Positions 9,984 to 32,208 of a stretch of 64,000 bases of DNA are shown here, one piece after another; the first letter of the stretch is position 1, and every line of letters starts with the position of its first letter. Source of the DNA: Nitrospinae bacterium bin107 (GTDB lineage Bacteria; UBA8248); contig MPNJ01000005.1 in assembly GCA_002238965.1 (NCBI GenBank), positions 62,001 to 126,000 on the forward strand. Reading direction: 5' to 3'. The translations under genes were made by a program, and so were the position numbers. The notes below the pieces were generated by a model. That model ran no database searches. It worked only from the letters and a program-made list of their open reading frames with translations, and had not been told where the DNA came from.

Positions 9984-10772
9984 ATGGACATGGGCCTGGA
10001 GGGAAAGGTTGCTCTCGTCACCGGAGGGACGAGCGGTATTGGAAAGGCGACGGTATTGGCCCTGGCGGACCAGGGCGTGAAGGTCGCCTTCTGCGGCCGG
10101 GATCAAGCCCGCCTGGGCGCCACCCTGAAGGCGGTCGAGGAACAAGGCGGCGCGGGTCTCTCTCTTCGTGCGGACATCAGCGTGGAGGAAGAAGCGCTGG
10201 AACTTGCGTCTCGCGTGGTCGAGTCATTCGGGCGGCTGGACATCCTCGTGAACAACGCCGGACGCGCGGCGCCGAGTTCGCTTCCCTCGCTGACGCCGGC
10301 GCAGATCCGAAAGACCGTGGACACGAAGATCGTCGGTTATCTCGTAATTTCGCGCGAGGCGGCGCATTTCATGAAAAAGCAGAAGGGGGGACGGATCATC
10401 AACATGATCGGAGGAACCGGCAAGGAACCCCTGCCCGGCGTTCTGGGAGGAAGCACGACGAACGCAGCACTCCTGGGGCTGAGCAAGGGCCTCTCCCAGG
10501 CCCTGGTCAATGACGGTATCTTGGTGAACACGATCTGTCTGGGGCAGATCGATACGCCCATGCAGGTCTGGATGACGGAGCAACTCGCCAAAGATCGAGG
10601 AATGTCGATCGACGAAATGCGCCGGGCCCGTGAATCGCAAATTCCCCTCGGACGATTCGGCACTCCCGAAGAAGTGGCGGGGCTGGCGGTGTTTCTGTCG
10701 TCGGTTCACGCGAGCTACATCACGGGAGCGACGATCAACGTCGACGGCGGAAAATTCCATTCGATCATCTGA
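9984..10772 (+). CDS. SDR-family oxidoreductase
   Basis: A classical short-chain dehydrogenase/reductase of about 262 residues. The cofactor motif reads VTGGTSGIGKAT near residue 15, NNAG follows at about residue 90, and the C terminus ends with YITGATINVDGG. The usual YxxxK active-site tyrosine is not obvious: the region reads GGSTTNAALLGLSKGL, with asparagine where tyrosine is expected. That is unusual and may mean altered or lost catalysis. ATG 9984 is chosen because GAGG lies seven bases upstream; a TTG at 9978 is in frame. It trails the CapA pair by 121 bases and may belong to the same operon. Confidence 0.9.
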   Translation: MDMGLEGKVALVTGGTSGIGKATVLALADQGVKVAFCGRDQARLGATLKAVEEQGGAGLSLRADISVEEEALELASRVVESFGRLDILVNNAGRAAPSSLPSLTPAQIRKTVDTKIVGYLVISREAAHFMKKQKGGRIINMIGGTGKEPLPGVLGGSTTNAALLGLSKGLSQALVNDGILVNTICLGQIDTPMQVWMTEQLAKDRGMSIDEMRRARESQIPLGRFGTPEEVAGLAVFLSSVHASYITGATINVDGGKFHSII

Positions 10773-27713: not shown

Positions 27714-28343
27714 TTATCGGAAATTCTTGAGATGGCATGCGGAGCCGAATTTCTTGATGTTCCATTGTGTCTGAGAGTTGAGTTTCTTGCGGAGCCGAAT
27801 TCCACCCGGTGACATCGAGAGCCGCTGTAGCTTGACGCCGGATTCTCTTATAGATCGGTCAACTTCCTTTCTCCTGGTTACAGTAGTAGACATAGATGAG
27901 CCTATAGTCGCTGATGCGTAAGCATTCTGCGTACATGAGAGAATGCGCTGTGTATCACTTTTTTTCGGTAGAGTACGTCCGCCTTTGCTCCAAGGCGTGA
28001 GAACTGCATGAGGGTTGGGCTCCAGCATTCGCTTCCACACATTCGGCTCATGGGCGTTTTCGGATCCATGGTGTGGGACCTTGAATGCCGACGCTATGCC
28101 AGCAGGTCGTGTCGTGCTCTGTAGAATCTCGACCCAGCCACGATTTTCCAAATCCGAACCAAGCAACACCACAAGGTCTCCCGCTTTGATCCAGAGCACG
28201 ACAGCGACATCGTTAGGAGAGATACTCGGAATGCGTCTTTTGCTTTCTCCTTCTTTAGGCAGCAACTTTCCAACATTTCTCAAGAAGGTGAGGAAGTTCG
28301 CATCGTTGGGCGAAAGCGTCCAGATTTCACACTCGTTGCGACG
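27714..28343 (-). pseudogene. C-terminal part of an MBL-fold hydrolase gene split by the IS1595 element
   Basis: These 209 codons continue, in frame, from the N-terminal part at 31759-32208 once the mobile element and one target duplication are removed. They contain LLGSDLE (residues about 211-216 of the restored protein, metal-ligand aspartate) and VPHHGSENAH (240-248), the late motifs of ComEC-like metallo-beta-lactamase domains, and a basic C-terminal tail. A TTG at 28283 could start a fragment, but without the HxHxDH half it would not be an active hydrolase. No other frameshift or stop is seen, so the disruption looks recent. Confidence 0.88.
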
Positions 28344-28351
28344 AAAAATAA
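28344..28351. repeat. Target site duplication, left copy
   Basis: AAAAATAA directly precedes the left terminal repeat and is repeated exactly at 31759-31766 after the right terminal repeat. An 8-base duplication is the normal product of IS1595-family insertion. Confidence 0.92.
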
Positions 28352-28376
28352 GGGAATTATATACAATAGTGCCTAA
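28352..28376 (+). repeat. Left terminal inverted repeat of the IS1595 element
   Basis: 25 bases starting GGGAATTATATACAATAGTG, identical to the reverse complement of 31734-31758. A GGG end is typical of the family. Confidence 0.95.
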
Positions 28377-28398
28377 AACCAGTTAAATCAGACTAATC

Positions 28399-28575
28399 TT
28401 ATTCTGATGAGGGAGGATTAGGAAGCTTGAGTTCTTCTCCGGGAGGTCTCTTTTTTAGGGACGTTGCAGCTTGCTTTTTTACATTTCGTTGTTCTACTAA
28501 TCTTTTACGAGTTTTCTTTTCTTGAATCGTCTTACTAGCTTTACCCGATTGAGGTTTTTTCGATCTTGAACTCAT
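28399..28575 (-). CDS. Small basic protein overlapping the SLATT-like gene
   Basis: A 58-residue, lysine- and arginine-rich protein (MSSRSKKPQSGKASKTIQ at the start, ending LPNPPSSE). Its start lies inside the end of the 175-residue membrane-protein gene, overlapping 35 bases in another frame, which suggests translational coupling. It resembles no family I know. The two genes probably form a cargo pair: a membrane protein and a positively charged partner or regulator. It was found by reading the frame directly and has no obvious Shine-Dalgarno site. Confidence 0.5.
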   Translation of the reverse strand: MSSRSKKPQSGKASKTIQEKKTRKRLVEQRNVKKQAATSLKKRPPGEELKLPNPPSSE

Positions 28576-29068
28576 TGATCAATATCCCTTCTACTTTTTT
28601 ACTCACGTTGGAATCAAGTTCAGCATCATCCACCACACCTACAAAATCAGCCCTACTGGTAATATGTTCAAGCTTCTCTCCCAAAATCCTATTTTTTGTT
28701 TTCGCAATTTCTTCTTCAATTTTATTTTCTTGAATTTCCGCCCACAAACTTTTCCAATCTCTACGCAATAACATAATATCAGTTGTTACTGTGTGTAAGA
28801 CAGCCGCCTTTCTATCGTGTCCAAAAGCAAAAATCAAACCCACTAAGAGTGAAATCGACGCACCAGATGCTACTTGCAGGTAACTTGAAAAGCTATCGGG
28901 GAATAAACTCACAATTGCACTAATTGCCCCGGTAAGCACTAAAATTACCTTCCATATAGTGCTCTTGCGTTCCATCTTCTGAGCAAGTTCCGCATAGTAG
29001 AGAGACAAGCGACAGGTATCTCCAAGGTTCCACCAAACATCAATTTTAGTTGTTTTGGAAATTCCCAT
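28541..29068 (-). CDS. SLATT-like two-transmembrane passenger protein
   Basis: A 175-residue protein. A short helical N terminus (LSLYYAELAQKME) leads into two adjacent membrane helices (IWKVILVLTGAISAIVSLF and YLQVASGASISLLVGLIFAF, residues about 38-85), then a long charged helical tail. This is the architecture of SLATT/DUF4231-type domains, which in nucleotide-signalled conflict systems are predicted pore-forming effectors. The residue pattern agrees, but the assignment is by eye. Carried inside the IS1595 element, transcribed away from the transposase. A defence or addiction cargo is one possibility. Confidence 0.65.
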   Translation of the reverse strand: MGISKTTKIDVWWNLGDTCRLSLYYAELAQKMERKSTIWKVILVLTGAISAIVSLFPDSFSSYLQVASGASISLLVGLIFAFGHDRKAAVLHTVTTDIMLLRRDWKSLWAEIQENKIEEEIAKTKNRILGEKLEHITSRADFVGVVDDAELDSNVSKKVEGILINEFKIEKTSIG

Positions 29069-29219
29069 AAGACAATCCTCTTTTTTCTTAAGTGTATTTA
29101 TACTTATTCCACATTCTCCTTAAAAACAAATTTCATTTAATCTTTTCGATATTATCTATTTTAGCATAAACCATCAATCAGCCCATTAATAAAAATACAA
29201 CAAATTATAAAAATAATAC

Positions 29220-29248
29220 TTGACAACTTCGGCACTATTTGGTAAAAT
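29220..29248 (+). promoter_or_regulatory. Promoter of the transposase gene
   Basis: TTGACA (29220-29225), a 17-base spacer and TAAAAT (29243-29248) lie 27 bases upstream of the transposase ATG, with AGGAGA as ribosome site in between. The match to sigma-70 consensus is strong. Confidence 0.75.
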
Positions 29249-29275
29249 TATGCCATTGAATAGGAGATAGAATCA

Positions 29276-30214
29276 ATGGCACAGAAAGCACCCGGCAAGG
29301 CATTCAGGGAAGGCATGAGCATCATGGATATGATGAAGATGTTCCCTGATGATGCAACAGCCGAAAAATGGTTCATCGAAAAAAGATGGCCTGTCGGCGT
29401 GTGTTGTCCTGAATGTGGTTCTTTGGATGTTCTCACTGGCGCAAAGCACAAAACCATGCCCTTCAGGTGTCGTGAAAAGGAATGTGGCAAACGATTCAGC
29501 GTCCGCACCAAAACCATCATGGAATCTTCCAATCTCGGATATCAACTATGGGCAATGGCACTTTACTTCTGCCTCACCAATCTCAAGGGCGTATCCAGCA
29601 TGAAGTTGCACCGAGACCTTGGGATTACCCAAAAATCCGCTTGGCACTTGACTCATAGAATCCGAAAAGCACTTGAATCAAATGGTGATTTTTTCAATGG
29701 CCCCGTGGAAATTGATGAAACTTATGTTGGTGGCTTGGAGAAGAACAAACACGGGAACAAAAAACAGAAGGCCGGGCGTGGCGCAGTAGGCAAAGCCGCC
29801 GTAGTGGGTATCAAGGAACGGAAGTCAAATAAGGTGAAGGCAAAGGTAGTGGAAGATACTAAGAAAGAAACCCTGCAAGATTTCGTGAATGAGAATGTAG
29901 AAGATGAAGTTGAAAAGTATACTGATGAAAATCGTTCTTACAGGGGATTGAAGAACCACAAAAGGGTGAATCACAGTATGGGCAAGTGGGTTGATGAAAT
30001 GGCTCATACAAACGGCATCGAATCCTTCTGGTCAATGTTCAAGCGGGGGTTTCATGGAACCTATCACAAGATGAGTCATAAACATCTTCAAAGATATGTT
30101 GATGAATTTTCCGGGAGGCACAACATCCGTAATCTTGATACAATCCACCAGATGGAAATGATGGTGAATGGAATGGACGGGAAACGTCTTAAATATAAAG
30201 ACTTGGTGGCTTAA
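29276..30214 (+). CDS. IS1595-family transposase (ISXO2-like, DDE)
   Basis: A 312-residue transposase. An N-terminal zinc ribbon has CPEC (residues 44-47) and C65/C70, followed by a helix-turn-helix-like part (KGVSSMKLHRDLGITQKSAW). The ISXO2-like catalytic domain has VEIDETYVGG (D147), DENRSYRGLKNH and HTNGIESFWSMFKRG, and ends with HLQRYVDEFSGRHNIR. Full length, with no stops or frameshifts, so it looks functional. AGGAGA lies eight bases before the ATG. It mobilises the surrounding 3.4-kb element. Confidence 0.96.
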   Translation: MAQKAPGKAFREGMSIMDMMKMFPDDATAEKWFIEKRWPVGVCCPECGSLDVLTGAKHKTMPFRCREKECGKRFSVRTKTIMESSNLGYQLWAMALYFCLTNLKGVSSMKLHRDLGITQKSAWHLTHRIRKALESNGDFFNGPVEIDETYVGGLEKNKHGNKKQKAGRGAVGKAAVVGIKERKSNKVKAKVVEDTKKETLQDFVNENVEDEVEKYTDENRSYRGLKNHKRVNHSMGKWVDEMAHTNGIESFWSMFKRGFHGTYHKMSHKHLQRYVDEFSGRHNIRNLDTIHQMEMMVNGMDGKRLKYKDLVA

Positions 30215-30215
30215 A

Positions 30216-30392
30216 ATGCCGAAGAAAAAGACGCAACAAAAATTGCCGGTAGTTGAAATCGTGGAATCGACGTATCAGCCTTCCAAAGCCGAGCAAGAAG
30301 AAGAATTTACGATAGAAGAAATGAGTTTGGATGAAGCAGTGGAACGTCTATTGCGTCCAGTTCAAATACGTCATACGGATAAGCCGAAATAA
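30216..30392 (+). CDS. Small passenger protein after the transposase
   Basis: A 58-residue protein starting MPKKKTQQKLPVVEIVESTY one base after the transposase stop, acidic in the middle (EQEEEFTIEEMSLDEAVE) and ending RLLRPVQIRHTDKPK. The tight spacing suggests co-translation with the transposase. A longer frame from 30168 overlaps the transposase and is not preferred. Function unknown. Confidence 0.6.
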   Translation: MPKKKTQQKLPVVEIVESTYQPSKAEQEEEFTIEEMSLDEAVERLLRPVQIRHTDKPK

Positions 30393-30438
30393 ACACTCCT
30401 GAATCTCCTTGTATAAATATTAGAAAGGAGATTTAATT

Positions 30439-30684
30439 ATGACTTCCCATAATCGTTCCACACAGCATAAACATGATCACGAAGTTGACGAAATGCTTCA
30501 TCTTCCACCTGAGTCAAATTTGCACGATCCCTTGCCTCACCGAGAGATTCTTGAAAAACAACCCCGGCCATATGTAAAGGAAAATCCTCCGTTTTCTCGT
30601 GAAACAAGGCTAGAGATGTTGCGAGAGCTTCAAGAATGGTGTGAACAGAAGTGGCCGGGTACGAAGTGGCGGCGGAAGAAGTAG
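30439..30684 (+). CDS. Small passenger protein of unknown function
   Basis: An 81-residue polar protein, rich in His, Glu and Pro, with a C-terminal helix (RLEMLRELQEWCEQKW) and a basic end. A strong AAAGGAG eight bases before the ATG supports this plus-strand gene over the overlapping 113-codon minus-strand frame. It follows the transposase and the 58-residue gene in the same direction. Not recognised. Confidence 0.55.
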   Translation: MTSHNRSTQHKHDHEVDEMLHLPPESNLHDPLPHREILEKQPRPYVKENPPFSRETRLEMLRELQEWCEQKWPGTKWRRKK

Positions 30685-30716
30685 ATTCATTTTCATTCAT
30701 TTTGATTCTCCCATTA

Positions 30717-31223
30717 TTAAAATGCAGACTTTCTTCGTTTCCCTTTGCAGTATTTTTTGAATAAAAGTTTAATAGCATTGACCATTCTATCTGAATCTAA
30801 ATCTGGCATTGGAATTGTAATTTTGTTATGACTACCTGACACAATTCCAGCTTGAGCAAAACTATATGCCCTAAGCTGATTGTGAAAATTTATATCTATT
30901 ACTGACTTATTTCCTTCCAAAATAAGAAAAGGAATTTTTTTTCTATTGATCCATTTTTCCTGTATTTTAACATCGTCTACAATTACATTATTCCAATTAA
31001 TGAGCATATAATCCCCATCGTTCCATTCAACTCCTGCTCTACAGACTTTCCTTTTAACTATTACTGCTGTCGCACCATCAAGTGTTTTTCGATGTGCATG
31101 ACCTAACATTAAATAGTTGTTGATTTGTTCAAACACATCTTTGGTTTCTGCAAATGAAACAGTGATATTTGAGAACACCACAATAGATATTACAAACAAA
31201 ACCGATAGACTTTTCTTGAACAT
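30717..31223 (-). CDS. Secreted passenger protein of unknown function
   Basis: A 168-residue protein with a clear signal peptide (MFKKSLSVLFVISIVVFSNI, then VSFAETKD). The mature part is beta-rich and polar, ends with a lysine-rich tail (YCKGKRRKSAF), and resembles no family I recognise. The ATG at 31223 is preferred because GGGAG lies eight bases upstream and the signal peptide starts there; the frame is open further upstream to 31319. The structured region 31251-31413 lies in its leader. A secreted protein is an odd cargo for an IS. Confidence 0.6.
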   Translation of the reverse strand: MFKKSLSVLFVISIVVFSNITVSFAETKDVFEQINNYLMLGHAHRKTLDGATAVIVKRKVCRAGVEWNDGDYMLINWNNVIVDDVKIQEKWINRKKIPFLILEGNKSVIDINFHNQLRAYSFAQAGIVSGSHNKITIPMPDLDSDRMVNAIKLLFKKYCKGKRRKSAF

Positions 31224-31250
31224 ACCCACATCTCCCACAACAACACGATC

Positions 31251-31413
31251 CCCGGCCTTCCCATAAGGCCGGGTCATGCCATTACCATAGAGATACTTGG
31301 GGTAATCTCGCCTATTCACCTTTTGTCCGGGGAGCTACCCCAAACCGGGTTGCAAGGCTGTTGTATTCAGCGAGTGACCCGACTTGGTAGACGGGAAACT
31401 CTATGGTAATGGC
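31251..31413. ncRNA. Structured intergenic element, possible RNA
   Basis: CCCGGCCTT/AAGGCCGGG (31251-31273) forms a nine-pair hairpin with a five-base loop. Next, GCCATTACCATAGAG (31278-31292) pairs perfectly with 31399-31413. That stem encloses TTGGGGTA (31297-31304) with TACCCCAA (31336-31343), and CGGGT (31346-31350) with ACCCG (31377-31381). Nested, non-overlapping helices form a closed multi-branched fold, as in a structured RNA. The strand is undetermined; it could be a leader of either neighbouring passenger gene. No known RNA family was recognised. Confidence 0.5.
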
Positions 31414-31476
31414 TAACGGGAAAGTATATGAGGTCGATTGCTAAAGTCAAGATGAAATTAAACGGGGGAATGTGAA

Positions 31477-31737
31477 ATGGGTATAAATAGATGTAGAACT
31501 TTGGAAGATCAAATAAGGAAACTTAAAAGAGATATGAGCGCAATCCTAAGACGACTAGATCAACTTGAAGAAAAAATGGATAAAAGATTTGATGGTCTTG
31601 AATCCCGAATAGATTCTTTTGAAAACAAAACCGGAAGATCATTTCTGGCTTTGACTAAACCTTTAGAAGTTCATTGTGGTTCTGAAGGCGCGGAAGCAAC
31701 CAGAGAATTAAAGGAAATTTGGAAGGATGATTCTTAG
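31477..31737 (+). CDS. Coiled-coil passenger protein
   Basis: An 86-residue protein with a long heptad-patterned helix (LEDQIRKLKRDM, AILRRLDQLEEKMDKRFDGL, ESRIDSFENK), then a short tail. GGGGGA seven bases before the ATG gives the start. Its TAG stop is supplied by the right terminal inverted repeat. Probably an oligomerising protein; function unknown. Confidence 0.6.
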   Translation: MGINRCRTLEDQIRKLKRDMSAILRRLDQLEEKMDKRFDGLESRIDSFENKTGRSFLALTKPLEVHCGSEGAEATRELKEIWKDDS

Positions 31738-31758
31738 GCACTATTGTATATAATTCCC
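31734..31758 (-). repeat. Right terminal inverted repeat of the IS1595 element
   Basis: Exact inverse of 28352-28376. It provides stop codons to the coiled-coil ORF on the plus strand and to the truncated MBL ORF on the minus strand. Confidence 0.95.
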
Positions 31759-32208
31759 AAAAATAAGGCAGTCTATGAGCGCTAGTTTCAGTCTCGACGC
31801 TACTTGCGAAAGCCGCGAGAAAACGTTGAAAATCTCTCTTAGGCCGGAACCAGCGACAGACAGGTGGCGGTATTCCAAGGCCCCGATGACGGCGAGAAAT
31901 TCCTTGTCACGTAATACACTTGAGCAGCAAAAAGTGGCTTTGTCGCAAACTTCAACCATTTGGGTCATGCCGCGTATGTGATCGTCATGCCAGTGAGTTG
32001 CCACGATTAACTCGACGGACTCAGCCGGGTCAATATCCATGTTTTCTAAGTATCTAAGGGAGCGCGGCGTCCCTTTCTCATCAAGGCAGGAGTCGACGAG
32101 GACCCAAGCACCGCCGCCGACATGCAAGACGATGCTCTCGCCATAACCGGGACCGAGAAGCGTGAATTCAAACTCGTCTATGTCAGGCGGCGTTCCCGTG
32201 CCAGTCAC
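31741..32208 (-). pseudogene. N-terminal part of the split MBL-fold hydrolase gene
   Basis: 150 native codons (32208-31759) followed by five codons read into the IS repeat and a TAG. It opens with FEFTLLGPGYGESIVLHVGG and has the zinc-binding THWHDDH (residues 71-77), the first half of a ComEC-like metallo-beta-lactamase fold. The rest is at 27714-28343; both parts join in frame to 359 residues. The GTG start at 32208 overlaps the stop of the upstream gene (GTGA), showing translational coupling in a three-gene unit. As it stands the product lacks the late metal ligands. Confidence 0.9.
31759..31766. repeat. Target site duplication, right copy
   Basis: AAAAATAA, identical to 28344-28351; see the left copy. 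Confidence 0.92.

Follow-up and report, generated by a model that had tools for sequence, protein, structure and literature searches.

The DNA analysed here (the window) is a stretch of 64,000 nucleotides from the genome of Nitrospinae bacterium bin107 (GenBank assembly GCA_002238965.1, contig MPNJ01000005.1, positions 62,001 to 126,000 of the forward strand). It contains a complete insertion sequence (IS) of the IS1595 family, 3,407 bp in length (28352–31758), of which the 4.37-Mb host genome holds one full copy. Between its ends lie a transposase gene, six further open reading frames (ORFs) and, on the minus strand, a structured RNA of about 165 nt (31249–31413) ahead of a gene for a protein with a signal-peptide-like N terminus (30717–31223). 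Coordinates without a prefix refer to the window.

The element and its insertion site

The terminal inverted repeats (28352–28376, plus strand, and 31734–31758, minus strand) matched at 25 of 25 positions and included a core, GGGAATTATATAC, common to related elements. They were flanked by direct copies of AAAAATAA, identical at all eight positions (28344–28351 and 31759–31766); an 8-bp target duplication is characteristic of the IS1595 family. The G+C content of the element was 0.395, as compared with 0.56–0.59 in the 5-kb flanks. The element lies within a minus-strand gene for a metallo-beta-lactamase-fold protein and splits it into a 5' part at 31767–32208 (profile matches) and a 3' part at 27717–28343 (weak ComEC-like matches in NCBIfam). 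Deletion in silico of the element along with one repeat restored a single open frame of 366 codons, stop to stop, joining the two parts. The G+C contrast, the restored frame and perfect duplications in five relatives (seven of eight positions in a sixth) together indicate a real insertion beyond chance. A preliminary description, made from the sequence alone, of a complete IS1595-family element with precise ends, an 8-bp duplication and an intact transposase proved exact in its coordinates. The matches of the interrupted gene (27717–32208) to ComEC-like and, very weakly, to Avs1a-like NCBIfam models were far under cut-off, and the locus containing it might have been disabled by the insertion.

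The transposase gene (29276–30214, plus strand) encodes 312 aa with a zinc ribbon and a DDE domain. Its matches exceeded the curated cut-offs for PF12762 (DDE_Tnp_IS1595; 135.6 against 27 bits), PF12760 (27.1 against 25.4) and NCBIfam NF033547 (IS1595; 180.6 against 75). Residues D147, N246, G247 and E249 were invariant across seven aligned transposases, and the D of the YTD block was replaced by E in one of them (L009); D147, the YTD block and the N246/G247/E249 region may hold the catalytic acidic residues. Six other transposases, four of them from complete relatives, were 54–62% identical to that of the window. A search of 61 genomes returned matches in nine at E 1e-20. Plasmid and phage searches (361 and 4 records) gave relatives all under 60% identity, and none of the 10 matches to a transposase pattern in a collection of genome contigs was confirmed.

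Related elements carry other passengers

The transposase search combined with the end pattern revealed five relatives with perfect 8-bp duplications, three within the genus and two in distant genomes: G000:C44 (2,958 bp, ATTTTTTT), G003:C15 (3,036 bp, AATAAAAA), G005:C247 (3,447 bp, CTTTTTTA), G129 (6,614 bp, L116 4536–11149, a distant genome, AATGATAT) and G026 (2,254 bp, AAAAATTT). The sixth, with one mismatch in its duplication, was G005:C94. The end core was present at both ends in four of the five perfect relatives; G026 had GGTAATTATATAC and GGTAATTATATAT instead. It occurred 28 times in the seven genomes of the genus and was absent from the family's 11 other genomes; single or decayed ends must accordingly be numerous. 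In the five relatives the two ends moved together, and these relatives carried largely other cargo rather than the same ORFs closed by stops.

Passengers differed from element to element. G000:C44 carried coiled-coil and small membrane-type proteins, as read from its ORFs, and G003:C15 two proteins whose N termini look signal-like. Fusions of an N6/N4 methylase with HNH were present in G005:C247 and G129 (Pfam, over cut-off). Two lipoproteins, a reprolysin-like one in G129 and, on a Chloroflexi contig (see below), a matrixin-like one that includes an fn3 domain, had lipoboxes and peptidase matches under the Pfam cut-offs. One small ORF, with the motif YxPxKAExEEE, recurred in four elements of two lineages, the window and G003:C15 in one genus and G129 and G398 in another (window 30216–30392, L013:6784–6942, L149:428–613, and L116 near 10448–10640). 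In the window it is on the plus strand right behind the transposase gene, encodes 58 aa (YQPSKAEQEEE) and had no Pfam or NCBIfam match; it is possibly an accessory transposition or regulatory peptide.

The six ORFs and the RNA, which are unrelated to transposition, thus lie between duplicated ends, and relatives carry other passengers. The intact ends, the duplication, the intact transposase and the relatives with near-identical ends but other cargo identify the element as an IS1595-family transporter IS that has exchangeable passengers and its own transposase gene. It resembles transporter ISs of this family such as ISNha5 in its transposase, inverted ends, 8-bp duplication and passengers unrelated to transposition. 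The available text of PMC11891212, which credits Siguier 2009, lists transcription regulators among known passengers (in ISNha5), and for other families it names methyltransferases and resistance genes. The window differs in its SLATT-like protein, secreted protein and conserved leader RNA, and its relatives in their methylase–HNH fusions, metalloprotease-like lipoproteins (under Pfam cut-off) and recurrent YxPxKAExEEE ORF.

Two relatives may be described separately. The 6.6-kb element of G129 carried the leader RNA, the reprolysin-like lipoprotein (under cut-off), the methylase–HNH fusion, an ORF with YNPTKAELEEE and a coiled-coil ORF. A relative on G000:C4 (L008:5037–7056) had the leader RNA, no transposase, degenerate ends and no duplication. 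Its long secreted-protein ORF contains a HELLHVLG-type motif, presumably a zinc motif, and gave no Pfam match at E 0.01.

A structured RNA ahead of a secreted-protein gene

The RNA comprises a long variable stem, a conserved core, a pseudoknot and a GC-rich hairpin; it matched the covariance model, for which the window copy served as one of three seeds, at 197.5 bits. Read along the minus strand, a –35-like TTGACT (31445–31450) stands 16 nt ahead of a –10-like TATACT (31423–31428), which ends 9 nt ahead of the 5' arm of the outer stem P1 (31399–31413), the probable transcript start. There follow the 5' pseudoknot strand GTCGGGTCA (31375–31383), a conserved internal loop TGAATACAA (31361–31369), a conserved GAATA with the 3' arm of stem P2 (31307–31317), the 3' arm of P1 (31278–31292), the 3' pseudoknot strand TGACCCGGC (31268–31276) and the GC-rich terminal hairpin (31251–31273), the 5' arm of which overlaps the 3' pseudoknot strand. 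All 41 pairs of the minus-strand model (R2) form in the window. A putative ribosome-binding site (31229–31236) precedes the start codon, 25 nt past the end of the RNA, of the cargo gene (30717–31223, minus strand), which encodes 168 aa with the signal-peptide-like N terminus MFKKSLSVLFVISIVVFSNITVSFAE... A single-sequence structure model of this protein was unusable (predicted local distance difference test score 37). The 'structured region' of the preliminary description does exist; it is better described as a conserved RNA, most probably the minus-strand leader of this gene.

The segment 31199–31458, covering promoter, leader and first eight codons, was 82% identical to G000:C4 and, over part of its length, 76% identical to G003:C15. 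The proteins behind the block shared by the window and G000:C4 aligned at chance level only (best E 0.34). Conservation of the block next to dissimilar proteins suggests that an exchange of the gene body can leave promoter, leader and first codons in place.

Pairing within the RNA was conserved as well. In the three-way alignment the outer stem was rebuilt by paired changes. Among 19 copies, in an alignment that was fitted to the model and so favours the structure, 92.5% of cells formed standard pairs and 36 of the 41 pairs had changes on both sides; none of 500 shuffles reached any of the measures, and sliding the alignment by one to three columns left 32–43% paired. P1 had diverged strongly in sequence among the copies, yet was 95.8% paired. 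The nucleotides CGGG, AAUACAA and GAAUA of the core were conserved and unpaired. A pseudoknot helix of at least 8 bp, G–U pairs allowed, formed in 17 of 23 copies, one of them (G002:C27) in a shifted register, with a mean of 8.3 bp as compared with 5.6 bp for shuffled strands, and GTCGGGTC/GACCCGGC was replaced by paired changes such as GTCGGGTCGT/ACGACCCGGC and TCCGGGTGG/CTGCCCGGG. The alignment A8 includes a partial copy (L112), two weak ones (L107 and L091) and two copies from L099. The tests on 23 copies leave aside a partial copy (G250:C1:4284832), weak ones (G250:C1:11760, and G004:C225 at 21.2 bits), the L009 remnant and loci L153 and L154, found with an Rfam model; G002:C33 (28.2 bits), a low-complexity inverted repeat, was excluded from the copy lists.

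The flanks of the 23 copies argue for the minus strand as the sense strand. A sigma70-like promoter (score at least 8) ended within 14 nt ahead of P1 in 15 copies and in none on the opposite side. A signal-peptide-like ORF with a ribosome-binding site lay downstream in 11 copies, as compared with one on the opposite side (Fisher p 0.0017), and in eight of these 11 the start codon was 20–46 nt past the RNA. The minus-strand model R2 outscored the first, plus-strand model R1 in six of nine independent copies (e.g. 73.2 against 59.0 bits in G129). The plus strand as sense was rejected, the promoter and start-codon tests being decisive.

Distribution of the RNA

R1 found distant copies in eight of 193 genomes at E 0.1. 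With R2, copies were found in five of the 18 genomes of the family, all five in the genus, and in seven of 386 relatives at E 0.02. The refined model R3 matched in one of five genomes of the phylum of G250, with four copies, and in four of 16 genomes of the phylum of G129. The closed 4.3-Mb genome G250:C1 (L113, L114, L152, L138 and L139) held the four R3 copies and a weaker fifth (21.4 bits); three of its copies were beside IS1595-family transposase matches.

On a contig of a Chloroflexi metagenome-assembled genome (VXOZ01000366.1, L129), the RNA scored 71.6 bits with R2 and was accompanied by an IS1595 transposase of 55% identity. This record came from a pattern scan with an over-long spacer, two further matches of which, and one viral match (L130), were not R2 matches at E 0.05; the scan was the sole organism-named survey and is no evidence of absence elsewhere. 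The RNA pattern gave six matches in three of 241 genomes, the reversed control pattern none among those listed, and viral contigs no matches to the pattern.

Relationship to sRNA-Xcc1 and C4 RNA

A scan of the window with Rfam at E 1 yielded no match to the small RNA (sRNA) sRNA-Xcc1 (RF02221) and nothing beyond an implausible match to the flavin mononucleotide riboswitch (RF00050, plus strand, E 0.46), which was rejected: it reached 19 of 66.2 bits, lay opposite to the sense strand and was not found in the other loci scanned. When the 23 loci were scanned with lax thresholds, RF02221 (gathering score 53 bits) matched at the RNA's own place and strand in six, with scores under threshold (25.4, 27.1, 27.4, 29.5, 32.6 and 36.6 bits). 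A search of 386 genomes with RF02221 gave nothing over the cut-off and two loci below it (35.8 and 32.3 bits). In these two, L153 and L154, inspection showed a long P1, both strands of the pseudoknot and, downstream, a signal-peptide-like protein; their R3 scores were 51.1 and 58.9 bits.

By score the leader lies outside RF02221, never exceeding 36.6 of 53 bits at the loci scanned, but the core motif and the outer pairing of the CGGG strand are present (helix of at least 8 bp in 17 of 23). The two RNAs share a CGGG strand paired with a GACCCG-like strand, an internal loop of AAUACAA and GAAUA, short stems, a position ahead of a gene and a setting in mobile elements (integron cassettes and prophages). 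Xanthomonas integrons carry sRNA-Xcc1 in cassettes, upstream of symE, according to the available text of PMC12444791. Phage copies have a short hairpin, the loop of which is gene-specific, at the place where the leader adds an outer stem of about 15 bp; the leader also precedes secreted-protein genes rather than antirepressors or symE. We infer that it is distantly related to the sRNA-Xcc1 of phages and integrons and extended by P1.

The phage branch was characterized with an sRNA-Xcc1 core pattern, which found at least 120 stretches in a viral collection (L155–L274); among the matches listed, 119 had enough flank and 103 were unique, and the following counts refer to these listed matches. Of 16 loci hand-picked from the stretches, 13 passed the RF02221 gathering score. 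The viral pseudoknot averaged 9.3 bp over the 103 unique copies, as compared with 6.4 bp after shuffling, and 84 of the 103 had, by the rule used, a ribosome-binding site and start codon 60–190 nt downstream. In these, the segment running from the core to the 3' pseudoknot strand, with its hairpin loop, was complementary to the ribosome-binding region of its own locus: complementarity of at least 6 nt was found in 83 of 84 (24% in mismatched controls) and of at least 7 nt in 69 of 84 (10%). Phage copies, such as that at L156:6761–6845, stand immediately ahead of their genes, and nine of 10 hand-picked downstream proteins were of antirepressor type (P22_AR, AntA, KilA-N, Bro-N or ORF6N). This suggests a C4-like control in cis for RF02221 in phages.

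The leader resembles the C4 antisense RNA of phages P1 and P7 as a structured RNA upstream of a mobile-element gene, and phage sRNA-Xcc1 resembles C4 (PMC5320573) in having loops complementary to the ribosome-binding region. The P1-type leader differs from C4 in showing no loop-to-Shine–Dalgarno pairing, and a C4-like pairing of its loop with the ribosome-binding site was rejected for lack of any excess over mismatched pairs. None of the 23 leader loci scanned matched C4 RNA (RF01695) at E 1 to 5.

Two viral loci showed further arrangements. At L182:2422–3753, isrK, C4 and sRNA-Xcc1 alternate, C4 being a separate neighbour, as if RNA-controlled units were stacked. Three CRISPR-DR4 repeat matches lay near an sRNA-Xcc1 and Bro-N unit at L169:2202–2349.

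Other passengers of the window

All six ORFs of the preliminary description exist, including a SLATT-like two-helix membrane protein, the secreted protein and a coiled-coil protein. The SLATT-like protein (28541–29068, minus strand, 175 aa) was under every curated cut-off in Pfam and NCBIfam and was matched in PADLOC. It overlaps a 58-aa basic ORF without a family match (28399–28575, minus strand). An 81-aa ORF (30439–30684, plus strand) shares its start region with the decayed element on G000:C4, and the 86-aa coiled-coil ORF (31477–31737, plus strand) has its stop codon within the right end.

Discussion

We consider it probable, judging from sequence comparison, that the transporter IS carries a minus-strand unit of promoter-like sequence, RNA and secreted-protein gene in which the RNA acts as a cis leader with swappable cargo. 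The three parts are best read as one transcription unit. Conservation supports a transcript that would begin at P1 and an RNA predicted to fold into P1, P2, P3, P4 and a CGGGUC/GACCCG pseudoknot. The leader may regulate the cargo gene behind it at the level of translation or of stability. In the window the terminal hairpin shares bases of its 5' arm with the 3' pseudoknot strand, so that hairpin and pseudoknot cannot both be complete at once and exclude each other at least in part; a switch between them is plausible.

Several observations weigh against this reading. The pseudoknot helix fell short of 8 bp in six of 23 copies, and 12 of 23 had no adjoining signal-peptide-like ORF by the rule used. 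Many of the 23 copies share one genus and are non-independent, and the tests overstate their independence. R2 scored under R1 in three of nine copies (G170, G006:C65 and G004:C225), and its advantage elsewhere may partly reflect 19 more model positions. RF02221 gave no match in 17 of the 23 loci scanned, and loop-to-Shine–Dalgarno complementarity at 13 leader loci showed no excess (5.5 nt as compared with 5.7 nt in mismatched pairs; with G–U pairs, 8.2 against 8.0 nt). The Chloroflexi RNA faces a 65-aa ORF without a signal peptide, away from the secreted metalloprotease-like gene. An IS1595-family transposase match, in some cases a fragment, lay near 11 of 25 copies, so the RNA is no fixed part of such elements; at E 0.5 the RNA was not matched in the related elements L043, L018 and L044, and in L009 only weakly (19.8 bits).

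The RNA might instead be a discrete trans-acting sRNA, processed from the cargo mRNA or transcribed independently of it, which we regard as a doubtful alternative. It would fit the Northern band of about 100 nt and mapped ends of 88 nt given for sRNA-Xcc1 in the available text of PMC2996969, the processing of the comparable phage C4 RNA out of a longer transcript by RNase P (PMC5320573, likewise seen in part) and the copies without a suitable downstream gene. Spacings of 20–46 nt to a signal-peptide-like start in eight of 23 copies argue against it, as does the hairpin of the window, behind which no terminator-like run of U was found; a processed sRNA is moreover compatible with a cis leader. 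Somewhat less probable again is a riboswitch that would bind a metabolite, respond to a signal from the envelope or the extracellular space and control secreted proteins. The strongly conserved unpaired core, the pseudoknot with its mutually exclusive hairpin and the recurrent link with signal-peptide genes are all consistent with this, but the downstream genes are alike in localization and not in any known pathway, and the antirepressor-type genes behind phage relatives (nine of 10 hand-picked) argue against a single metabolite.

For the element as a whole, the preliminary description proposed a small defence or persistence module, which would have the SLATT-like protein as a pore-forming effector. 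SLATT_1, SLATT_4, SLATT_5 and PADLOC 2TM models did match it, at E 2e-7 to 2e-3, and two relatives carry a methylase fused to HNH. These matches reached 22.6 of 27 bits for SLATT_4 (Pfam), 31.1 of 41 for SLATT_1 (NCBIfam) and 19.8 of 26.3 for another SLATT model, the 2TM effector matched at E 5e-4 in PADLOC, which gives no cut-off, and searches of the element's ORFs with Pfam, NCBIfam and PADLOC revealed no sensor, nucleotidyltransferase, SLOG protein or further defence partner. Cargo that differs largely between elements fits the transporter-IS concept and no fixed defence module, and we regard the proposal as very improbable and have dropped it. Least probable of all is a fold acting as single-stranded DNA, an attC-like recombination site that swaps cargo bodies: the block kept through the eighth codon in front of differing gene bodies (window and G000:C4) and the integron cassettes of PMC12444791 would suit it, but not the promoter-like sequence that 15 of 23 copies have immediately ahead of P1, the short start-codon spacing in eight, the G–U pairs of the sense reading or the failure to find an integrase among the ORFs of the element in Pfam and NCBIfam.

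The element belongs to a known kind of IS as a new member, and the leader RNA with its secreted cargo is a new variant within a known kind of RNA; the link between phage RNA and leader is the most interesting part of the leader finding. It is an even question whether a wider superfamily of mobile 5' leader RNAs travels with exchangeable cargo, ahead of antirepressors in prophages and of secreted-protein or lipoprotein genes in IS1595 transporter ISs of several phyla, with Rfam sRNA-Xcc1 being only its phage and integron branch. The core would be constant and the part that addresses the target replaced, a loop against the ribosome-binding site in phages and the long P1 here. If so, sRNA-Xcc1 would have been mis-filed as a stand-alone trans-acting sRNA. 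'sRNA-Xcc1' and 'antirepressor' were not found together in the literature searched, which covered few subscription papers (the 2011 sRNA-Xcc1 paper not among them), and co-mentions of 'IS1595' and 'riboswitch' there concerned other subjects, judging by their titles.

The function of sRNA-Xcc1 looks unsettled in the portion of the literature available, and its link to the leader makes a direct test possible, since the complementarity between phage loop and ribosome-binding region is gene-specific. Passengers in small IS elements are already known; a conserved structured leader able to stay with an element when the gene behind it is exchanged would amount to a transferable means of controlling exported proteins.

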